From the NCBI RefSeq assembly GCF_001536285.1, contig NZ_FAOZ01000001.1, positions 248,001-312,000 on the forward strand: 64,000 nt of DNA. Reading direction: 5' to 3'. Position numbers and translations under genes: made by a program. Position 1 is the stretch's first letter. Each line of letters starts with the position of its first letter. Below, piece after piece: positions 38,256 to 62,210 of the stretch. The notes below the pieces were generated by a model. It saw nothing but the letters and a program-made list of their open reading frames with translations, was not told the DNA's origin and did not search any database. The DNA comes from Parafrankia irregularis. Its GTDB lineage: Bacteria > Actinomycetota > Actinomycetes > Frankiales > Frankiaceae.

Positions 38256-39003
38256 GCACTCACTCCTGACGCGCGGCGCTTCCATCCGGCTGTCCTCGCG
38301 GGTAACCGGAGAACCCGGGCGACGGTATCCGGCCTGTCCGGCCCGCCTGCAGGCGGGCCGGACAAAACCGTCCAATTACCCGGACACCCACCGCGGAGCC
38401 CCAACCCGCCGCCCCGGCCCGACAGCCACGGTAGACCAGCAGGCCCACTCAGGGTCACGACCAACAGACACAGCGAATCGGCGGACGAGCCCGAGATCCG
38501 CCGCGCGCCTGAAGCTCGGGGCGCCCTCCGGGGACTTCGGTGACCGGCACGAGGGGCAGGGCCGGCGGGACCGGACGGCCCGGTCGGCAATCGAGGACCA
38601 CCAAGCCCTAACGGCCTGAAGTACAGGACCAATTACACAGAGCACTACCATCAGACCGGCGGTTACCATACCCGCACAGCGCGCTCCGGATACGTGACGG
38701 ACGTTCGGCCCGTACCGCCGGACATCCGCCACTCCCGGAGGTGCCGCGCCGATTCCCGCCTTCGATCCGCGAGTGCCGCCCCATCGAGAAGCGAGGAGTG
38801 AACACACGGATCAGGCAACCGTGTGACGAACGACACGTTGCCCTTTATTGTGGGCCGATATCGCCTCGCCATCCACAGAACAAAGATCTGACTAATTTCA
38901 GAATCCGGCGGCCAGCCGGTTACCCCGTCGGCGAAACTTCCGAAGTCCGACGGGGGCACTGTTCACGTTGCAGGGCCCACACCCGACGATTGGGAGGATT
39001 CCT
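38256..39003. other. Divergent intergenic region, Pro/Ala-rich gene / PNPOx-like gene
   Basis: 748 nt with no gene I can support. It contains the 30-nt perfect palindrome at 38335-38364. From about 38620 to 38950 base composition is clearly less GC-rich than elsewhere in the window, as in promoter or acquired DNA. Promoters for both flanking genes should lie here. Confidence 0.5.
38335..38364. promoter_or_regulatory. 30-nt perfect palindrome upstream of the Pro/Ala-rich gene
   Basis: Each base from 38335 to 38364 pairs with its mirror, 15+15 nt with no spacer (centre CTGCAG). It lies 80-109 nt upstream of the start of the 1022-residue gene and is not followed by a T-tract. It could be an operator for a dimeric regulator, an RNA hairpin or a mobile palindromic unit. 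Confidence 0.75.
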
Positions 39004-39510
39004 GTGTCAACGTCAACCTCCGACACCGTCTCCGCCGACCTGACCCTGACCCGGAACTACGTCCGCGACGGAAAGGTGATGCAGATCGCGACGCTGGCGG
39101 AGAGCGGCGAGCCGGTTGTGTGCAACCTCTGGTACGCGAGTTCGTTCGATCCGGACCGGCTCCTGTTCATCTCCCGTCCCGATCGCGCGCACTGCCGGAA
39201 CATCCGGGCCGACCGGCGGGTGGCCGGCGCCGTGCTCACCATCGAGCTCGACGGGCTGGGCCAGGAGGTCCAGGGGGTGAGCTTCGCGGGAACGGCGCGG
39301 CAGGTGCCGGACGAATCCGCGCCCGCGCTGCTCCCGATCTACCACGGGCGCTGGCCGGCAGGCAGTGAACTGGCCAACCGCGAGCTGATGAGGGCCGACG
39401 CCAACGCCCACCGGCTGTACGAGATCCAGATTCACCGCTGGATCCTGTTCGACGAGGTCAACCATCCGGACGACCCGCGGCGCGTCATCGAGCTCGCCAC
39501 CACGATCTGA
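39004..39510 (+). CDS. Pyridoxamine 5'-phosphate oxidase-fold protein
   Basis: A 168-residue split-barrel flavin-binding protein of the PNPOx-like family. The barrel strands read KVMQIATLAESGEPVVCNLW, YASSFDPDRLLFISRPDRAH and RNIRADRRVAGAVLTIELDG; the dimer-interface His/Trp segment is YEIQIHRWILFDEV. Such proteins bind FMN, FAD or F420 and reduce or oxidise small substrates; which applies is not visible. The GTG at 39004 has GGGAGG 6 nt upstream and the protein then has normal family length. Downstream lies a very large palindrome before the convergent pyruvate kinase gene. Confidence 0.85.
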   Translation: MSTSTSDTVSADLTLTRNYVRDGKVMQIATLAESGEPVVCNLWYASSFDPDRLLFISRPDRAHCRNIRADRRVAGAVLTIELDGLGQEVQGVSFAGTARQVPDESAPALLPIYHGRWPAGSELANRELMRADANAHRLYEIQIHRWILFDEVNHPDDPRRVIELATTI

Positions 39511-39692
39511 CCCGCGCGCAGCCCCGGGCACCGGCCTTCCCCGACCCGGTCCACCTCAGACCGCGGCTACCTGGCAGGCCCTACTCGCTGGACAGTTCTC
39601 GTCGTGCGCGCCGCCGAAGCTGCAGATCGCCAGACGCTCGTCCCGCTTCGCCGGGCGGTGCGAGGCGGGCCCAGGCTCAGCCGCTGTCAGCA

Positions 39693-39740
39693 CCGCCACG
39701 GCTGTCGCCACCACGATCGTGGTGGCGACAGCCGTGGCGG
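39693..39740. terminator. 48-nt perfect palindrome between convergent genes
   Basis: Positions 39693-39740 form a perfect palindrome (24+24 nt, central AT), so RNA from either strand can fold into a hairpin of more than 20 bp. With the separate 14-bp stem at 39763-39800 it separates the PNPOx-like and pyruvate kinase genes. A terminator is the conservative reading; the length is unusual for one. Confidence 0.7.
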
Positions 39741-39762
39741 CACCGGTCGTGCGGGTGGCCGT

Positions 39763-39800
39763 GGCGGTGGTCCGGCGCGGCCCCGGGCCGGACCACCGCC
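39763..39800. terminator. Hairpin terminator at the end of the pyruvate kinase gene
   Basis: Perfect 14-bp stem (arms 39763-39776 and 39787-39800, 10-nt loop), ending 6 nt from the stop of pyk. No T-tract. Confidence 0.75.
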
Positions 39801-39806
39801 GGGCGG

Positions 39807-41222
39807 TCAGACCGCCTCACCGATCCGGTGCACCCGCATCGTATTGGTCATACCGGCGACGCCGGGCGGGGTGCCCGCGACGACCACGACCAGCTCACCG
39901 GGCTGGAGATAGCCGTTCTTGCGCAGCGCCGTGTCCACCTGCCGGACCATCTCGTCCGTGCTGTCGGCGAAGGGCACGATGATCGTCTCGACGCCCCACA
40001 GCAGCGACATCTGGTTACGCACCGCGGGCAGCGGTGAGAAGGCCAGCACGGGGACCGAGCTGCGGTAACGGATCAGCCGGCGAGCGGTGTCACCGCTGAG
40101 GGTGTGGGCGACCAGGTAACGGGCGCCCACCGCCTCCCCGACGCTGACCGCCGCCTGGGCGATGGCACCGCCCAGTGTCCGCGGCTGCGTGCGCAGCGGT
40201 GGGATCCGGGCCAGGTCCGCCTCGGCGACCTCGATGATCCGCCCCATGGTGGCGGCGGCCTCGACCGGATACGAACCGACGCTCGTCTCGGCCGAGAGCA
40301 TGATCGCGTCCGCACCGTCGAGCACGGCGTTGGCGCAGTCACTCGCCTCCGCCCGGGTCGGGCGCGGGGCGCTGACCATGGATTCGAGCACCTGGGTGGC
40401 GACGATGACCGGCTTCGCCCGCTCGCGTGCCTGGCTGACGGCGCGCTTCTGGACCAGCGGGACGTCCTCGAGTGGCAGCTCGACGCCCAGGTCACCGCGG
40501 GCGATCATGAGGCCGTCGAAGGCCTCGATGATGCCTTCCAGCTCGTCGACCGCCTGCGGCTTCTCGATCTTCGCCAGGACGGGGACCCGCAGGCCGACCT
40601 CGTCCATGATCGTCCGGACCGCCTGGTAGTCCTCGGCGGACCGGACGAACGACAACGCGATCATGTCGACGCCGAGCTCGAGGGCGAACCGCAGGTCGGA
40701 GCCGTCCTTCTCGGACAGCGCCGGCACCGTCAGCGCCGCACTCGGGATGTTCATGCCCTTGTGGTCGCTGACCTTGCCGCCGATCACGACGGTGGTCCGG
40801 ACGTCGGTGTCCTCGACACCGTCGATGCGCAGGTTGAGCCGGCCGTCGTCGACGAGGATCGTGTCACCGGCGGCGACGTCCCGGGGCAGGCCGGTGTAGG
40901 TGGTGCCGACCTGCTCCTGATCACCCAGGACGTCGCGGATCGTGACGGTGAAGTGCTGACCGGGCAGCAGGGTCACTCCACCGTCGGCGAACTTGCCGAG
41001 GCGGATCTTGGGCCCCTGCAGGTCCGCCAGGATGCCCACATTGCGGCCGGCGGCCTCGGCGGCGTCCCGAACCAGCTTGTAGCTGGCGGCGTGTTGCTCG
41101 TGCGTCCCATGCGAGAAGTTGAGCCGGGCAATGTCCATTCCGGCGTCTACGAGGGCCCGGACCATCTCAGGCGAGTTGGTGGCCGGGCCGAGGGTGCAAA
41201 CTATCTTGGCTCTTCGTGGCAC
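39807..41222 (-). CDS. pyk: Pyruvate kinase
   Basis: A 471-residue pyruvate kinase making pyruvate and ATP from phosphoenolpyruvate and ADP. The N-terminus VPRRAKIVCTLGPATNSPEM is followed by MDIARLNFSHGTHEQHA, the B-domain, then FVRSAEDYQAVR, VLAKIEKPQAVDEL (catalytic Lys), IEAFDGLMIARGDLGVELPL, QVLESMVSAPRPTRAEASD and IMLSAETSVGSYPVEA. The C-terminal allosteric domain begins near TQPRTLGGAIAQAA. I chose GTG 41222, with AGG 8 nt upstream, to match family starts; TTG 41228 is an alternative. A 12-nt perfect palindrome (41242-41253) lies about 20 nt upstream. Confidence 0.96.
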   Translation of the reverse strand: MPRRAKIVCTLGPATNSPEMVRALVDAGMDIARLNFSHGTHEQHAASYKLVRDAAEAAGRNVGILADLQGPKIRLGKFADGGVTLLPGQHFTVTIRDVLGDQEQVGTTYTGLPRDVAAGDTILVDDGRLNLRIDGVEDTDVRTTVVIGGKVSDHKGMNIPSAALTVPALSEKDGSDLRFALELGVDMIALSFVRSAEDYQAVRTIMDEVGLRVPVLAKIEKPQAVDELEGIIEAFDGLMIARGDLGVELPLEDVPLVQKRAVSQARERAKPVIVATQVLESMVSAPRPTRAEASDCANAVLDGADAIMLSAETSVGSYPVEAAATMGRIIEVAEADLARIPPLRTQPRTLGGAIAQAAVSVGEAVGARYLVAHTLSGDTARRLIRYRSSVPVLAFSPLPAVRNQMSLLWGVETIIVPFADSTDEMVRQVDTALRKNGYLQPGELVVVVAGTPPGVAGMTNTMRVHRIGEAV

Positions 41223-41241
41223 GGTCAAAGCCTAAGTAACG

Positions 41242-62173: not shown

Positions 62174-62210
62174 GGTGAGGCGCCGCCGATACGGGCGGCG
62201 GCGCCTCACC
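62174..62210. terminator. Bidirectional hairpin terminator
   Basis: Perfect 14-bp stem (62174-62187 with 62197-62210), 9-nt loop, between the convergent acyl-CoA dehydrogenase and secreted-repeat genes. No T-tract. Confidence 0.8.

Follow-up and report, generated by a model that had tools for sequence, protein, structure and literature searches.

The perfect 48-nt palindrome that lies between two convergent genes of Parafrankia irregularis raises two questions, namely what an inverted repeat of this length may be doing between two gene ends, and how it may have arisen. The window, which is the whole stretch of DNA analysed here (64,000 nt), includes the palindrome, a second hairpin, and both flanking genes. 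The features relevant to these questions are as follows.

38968..39510, + strand: gene encoding an oxidoreductase with a PNPOx_N domain (PPOX-class, F420-type), upstream convergent partner; start position provisional
39585..39640: another part of the gap between the genes that is conserved genus-wide; no consistent reading frame
39693..39740: perfect 24+24 palindrome, predicted RNA hairpin on either strand; from complementarity and the chance calculation
39693..39716: pnpox-proximal arm, apparently ancestral; 19-24 of 24 positions kept in all six of the species searched within the genus
39717..39740: pyk-proximal arm; only in the window genome and strain EUN1f, with a chance-level match in four other species
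39763..39800: second hairpin, 18 bp, one mismatch, 2-nt spacer; from complementarity
39807..41228, - strand: pyruvate kinase gene (pyk), convergent partner

Structure and gene setting of the two hairpins

The original prediction described a perfect 48-nt palindrome followed by a second hairpin of 14 bp, between convergent pnpox-like and pyk genes. The palindrome is real. Its arms are 100% complementary; the left arm is CCGCCACGGCTGTCGCCACCACGA, and the exact reverse complement adjoins it directly, with a spacer of 0 nt. The second inverted repeat is also present, and it is longer than was claimed. Its arms (39763-39780 and 39783-39800) are 18 nt each, 94% complementary, and separated by 2 nt, and the '14-bp' stem corresponds to the uninterrupted outer part. 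The convergent setting holds as well, both hairpins being located inside the 296-bp gap that separates the PNPOx-like gene from pyk. The second hairpin starts 6 bp beyond the pyk stop codon, and 22 bp separate it from the palindrome, the ends of which are 66 bp from the pyk stop and 182 bp from the PNPOx-like stop. In two of the six genomes (G001, i.e., EUN1f, C317:26201-27196; and G002, C190:9599-10595) there is a further pyk-like gene, with 85% identity to the window pyk DNA.

The palindrome is predicted to form an RNA hairpin of about -51 kcal/mol on either strand. The region folds at -109 kcal/mol on one strand (z about -8.4) and at -106 kcal/mol on the other (z about -8.8), and none of 200 shuffles folds as low. 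At 72% GC, chance would give about 1.7e-8 perfect 24+24 palindromes without a spacer in 64 kb and 2.6e-6 in 9.5 Mb, and therefore none is expected by chance in the genome. Two other perfect inverted repeats are present in the window, at 38335-38364 (15+15, no spacer) and at 62174-62210 (15+15, 7-nt spacer).

Chimeric assembly can yield perfect palindromes, and a false inverted join could in principle have made this one. However, the independently assembled Parafrankia sp. EUN1f (contig NZ_ADGX01000233) has both hairpins, identical to those of the window, and an assembly artefact is therefore extremely improbable. The DNA around the hairpins is 97-98% identical in the two strains.

Frequency, location, and conservation of long stems

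A stem scan was performed on 1.19 Mb of the window genome, with a spacer of up to 8 allowed and net length defined as pairs minus twice the mismatches. Genes were called with an improvised gene caller, and the gap classes in the following counts are approximate. There are 139 stems with a net length of at least 12, of which 39 are in convergent gaps, versus 4.0 expected from the share of bases in such gaps (2.9%; p 2e-27). With a net length of at least 20 there are nine stems, six of them in convergent gaps versus 0.26 expected (binomial p 4e-8). One of these six is part of a dispersed repeat, and the others are mutually unrelated in sequence. Stems with a net length of at least 12 are present in 36 of 132 convergent gaps (about a quarter). 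One other convergent gap (C2:403244-403397) likewise has a pair of stems, 23 and 24 bp long. The same tendency toward convergent gaps is seen, more weakly, in 0.4 Mb sampled from a Frankia genome (G009).

Stem lengths thus form a continuum, and the palindrome is at the upper end of it rather than being one of a kind. It was to be considered routine if convergent junctions had unrelated inverted repeats of the same length; such repeats exist, and hairpins of this kind are routine in the window genome. Several stems of 21-25 bp occur within the 1.19 Mb, contrary to the original expectation that this length is normally unstable in DNA. Very long stems, perfect ones included, thus seem to be a regular means of keeping convergent genes apart in this high-GC genome.

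Could the palindrome instead be a mobile or dispersed unit of the REP/MITE type, as was also proposed? Dispersed palindromic repeat families do exist in the window genome. A search of this genome (9.54 Mb, 82 contigs) for related palindromes, however, yielded no second copy, but only self matches and weak low-complexity matches, and the outer arm is orthologous at the same site, and vertically inherited, throughout the genus. Membership in a dispersed GGATTTTGGT family was considered and rejected, the copies of the family core in the window being no more than expected by chance. Being single-copy, the palindrome is not a mobile palindromic unit, and we regard that origin as highly improbable.

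Two dispersed elements may be recorded here. A repeat of ~145 nt, the centre of which is a perfect or near-perfect palindrome (CAAGAAGTGCGGATTTTGGTTGCTGCAGCAACCAAAATCCGCACTTCTTG), is present in many copies in the window genome (e.g., C1:36820-36965) and in EUN1f, whereas searches of the four other Parafrankia species showed none; about 60 matches to it are listed elsewhere in the window genome, with both palindrome strands counted. The exact palindromic motif GATTTYGGTYGT-N4-ACRACCRAAATC has 50 copies in the window genome (e.g., C2:257194-257221) and 15 in EUN1f, and none in 21 other genomes searched or in the reversed control. This motif is probably related to the ~145-nt repeat, and looks like a REP/MITE-like family with a recent expansion.

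At the pyk locus itself, the palindrome hairpin is not conserved beyond the sister strain EUN1f among six Parafrankia genomes. The relatives have different hairpins at the end of pyk, with a 20-bp stem in EI5c and 12-bp stems in two others. A similar restriction to the two sister strains is found for another stem (C1:403700). Compensatory change is seen at two comparable sites. At C2:403346, the larger stem of the two-stem gap, the congeners searched retain a hairpin with altered paired bases, the stem of one congener being at a contig edge. At C1:460753, an A-T pair is exchanged for T-A between the sister strains inside a perfect stem. Changed sequence with pairing kept is the pattern to be expected of a functional RNA hairpin whose sequence turns over fast.

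Origin of the palindrome arms

The two arms of the palindrome differ in their conservation. The pnpox-side arm, which is distal on the pyk-sense strand, matches the orthologous gap of each of the four other species at 19-22 of 24 positions, a level equalled by none of 500 shuffles. The pyk-side arm matches at 14-16 of 24 positions in the same comparison, which is at the shuffle level (P 0.06-0.7). In two species, a 10-bp palindromic seed, CACGATCGTG, is present at the centre. In a FastTree phylogeny of the genus, which is built on pyk alone, the two palindrome-bearing strains are nested within the genus, next to EI5c. Because the carriers are nested, a gain of the pyk-side arm is simpler than repeated loss.

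One arm therefore seems to be a fairly recent copy of the other. A polymerase can fold back on the strand it has just made and copy an arm; this route of mutation is established, and in E. coli such template switching is known to perfect quasipalindromes (PMC7202029). The pattern expected of it, an ancestral arm joined to a newly complementary one in a nested lineage, is present here as judged from the one-gene tree, and the conservation of a single arm fits this mechanism. The perfect palindrome probably dates from the ancestor shared by the window strain and EUN1f, in which a polymerase would have folded back at a short seed resembling CACGATCGTG and used the conserved pnpox-side arm as the template for a copy on the pyk side. 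In the E. coli mutation, too, one arm becomes a copy of the complement of the other; here the event is deduced from a comparison of species, with no mutation observed (PMC7202029). The site thus exemplifies a terminator-like palindrome seemingly born from one pre-existing arm.

A more tentative and rather doubtful proposal is that fold-back template switching repeatedly creates or renews the terminator hairpins at convergent junctions in Parafrankia, replacing decaying ones, with this site as a fresh example. If so, the mutation mechanism itself would supply new bidirectional terminators, with the ancestral arm in this case still visible in the relatives, and the fast turnover of U-poor terminators with their function retained would be explained.

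The same mechanism could also have left a palindrome without any function. The origin in a single lineage and the conservation of one arm alone agree with such a neutral mutational product. Yet long stems are concentrated in convergent gaps and kept by compensatory changes at the comparable sites, and the palindrome is still perfect in two strains that differ by 2-3% in the surrounding DNA. A purely neutral product is thus considered unlikely.

A probable bidirectional terminator and its relation to known systems

The most likely interpretation is that the two hairpins are a two-way transcription stop signal of an ordinary kind and unusual length. More specifically, they probably constitute a tandem, U-poor ('I-shaped') bidirectional terminator and RNA 3' end similar to those of Streptomyces, a function predicted here with good confidence. 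Among the three roles first suggested, the double terminator is the best supported, by its position, its two stems, the enrichment of stems in convergent gaps, the compensatory changes at comparable sites, and the absence of U-tracts, as in GC-rich actinobacteria; a structured 3' RNA would give the same picture in the sequence, and the mobile palindromic unit has to be dropped.

A polymerase leaving pyk would transcribe the second stem (39800 to 39763) and then the palindrome, and one leaving the PNPOx-like gene would meet them in the reverse order. Because both elements are nearly self-complementary, the same hairpins would form in the RNA of each strand. The hairpins may pause or release the polymerase, probably with the help of Rho/NusG or of collision with the opposing polymerase, and may cap the RNA against 3'-5' exonucleases. 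Both genes would thereby be spared antisense read-through.

A GC-rich hairpin downstream of a stop codon, as in canonical intrinsic terminators, is present, and a U-tract directly after the stem is not. No T-run follows either stem on either strand; consequently, a scan for canonical terminators gave no match, and the element is not a canonical terminator. A strong hairpin without a U-tract between convergent genes is, however, characteristic of U-poor (I-shaped) bidirectional terminators of GC-rich actinobacteria. Whether U-less hairpins alone terminate the actinobacterial polymerase is disputed.

An alternative, less probable than the terminator and still to be taken seriously, is that Rho ends transcription downstream, and that the hairpins stabilise the 3' ends by stopping 3'-5' trimming. 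The absence of a U-tract in either direction is compatible with such an exonuclease barrier. So are the highly structured, U-lacking 3' ends that are common in Streptomyces Term-seq data, which have been likened either to I-shaped terminators or to trimmed Rho ends (PMC8269248), and the observation that only 4-6.6% of Streptomyces 3' ends meet canonical intrinsic criteria (PMC12207403). The preference of the longest stems for convergent gaps over gene ends generally, however, is more readily accounted for if they act as a two-way stop. The terminator and barrier roles are not exclusive.

Two intergenic blocks downstream of pyk, 39585-39640 and 39680-39716, are conserved across the genus; they match no Rfam family, and no reading frame in them is consistent. 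The genus-wide conservation of a flanking block might suggest that the palindrome is a binding site for a protein, or that it belongs to a small gene or an sRNA. A small protein in the conserved block was rejected, as no frame is consistent across the five species translated. A known RNA family was rejected likewise, as the matches are mostly to miRNA models and far below gathering scores, as any long stem would produce, which also argues against an sRNA. For a protein-binding site, 48 bp would be more than is needed, and the congeners would be expected to have it too. All of these possibilities are very unlikely.

The predicted bidirectional terminator has its closest counterpart in the Streptomyces HS-U-lack (I-shaped) ends and bidirectional TEPs (PMC8269248), with which it shares a GC-rich stem without a U-tract, convergent genes, a long stem, and a short loop. 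At the bidirectional ends in Streptomyces, stems are longer, loops are shorter, and read-through is lower (PMC8269248), and in a cross-species survey the terminator hairpins of Streptomyces exceed all others in length and stability, contain few U's, and show covariation (PMC12207403). Those ends were measured, whereas the present one is predicted, in a Frankiaceae host, and its 24 bp without a spacer are at the upper end of the range. The two adjacent hairpins near a stop codon also resemble the clustered-hairpin intrinsic terminators, in which poly-U is not required (PMC8355165), although the hairpins there are <15 bases apart versus 22 bp here, and 98% of those sites are within 80 bases of the stop (<=80) versus 66 bp (pyk) and 182 bp (PNPOx-like). 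The bidirectional terminators of Bacillus cereus (PMC5381666) differ in having an A-tract and U-tract, which are absent here; as in those terminators, one segment would serve two convergent genes, and compensatory evolution is seen, in this case at the comparable sites.
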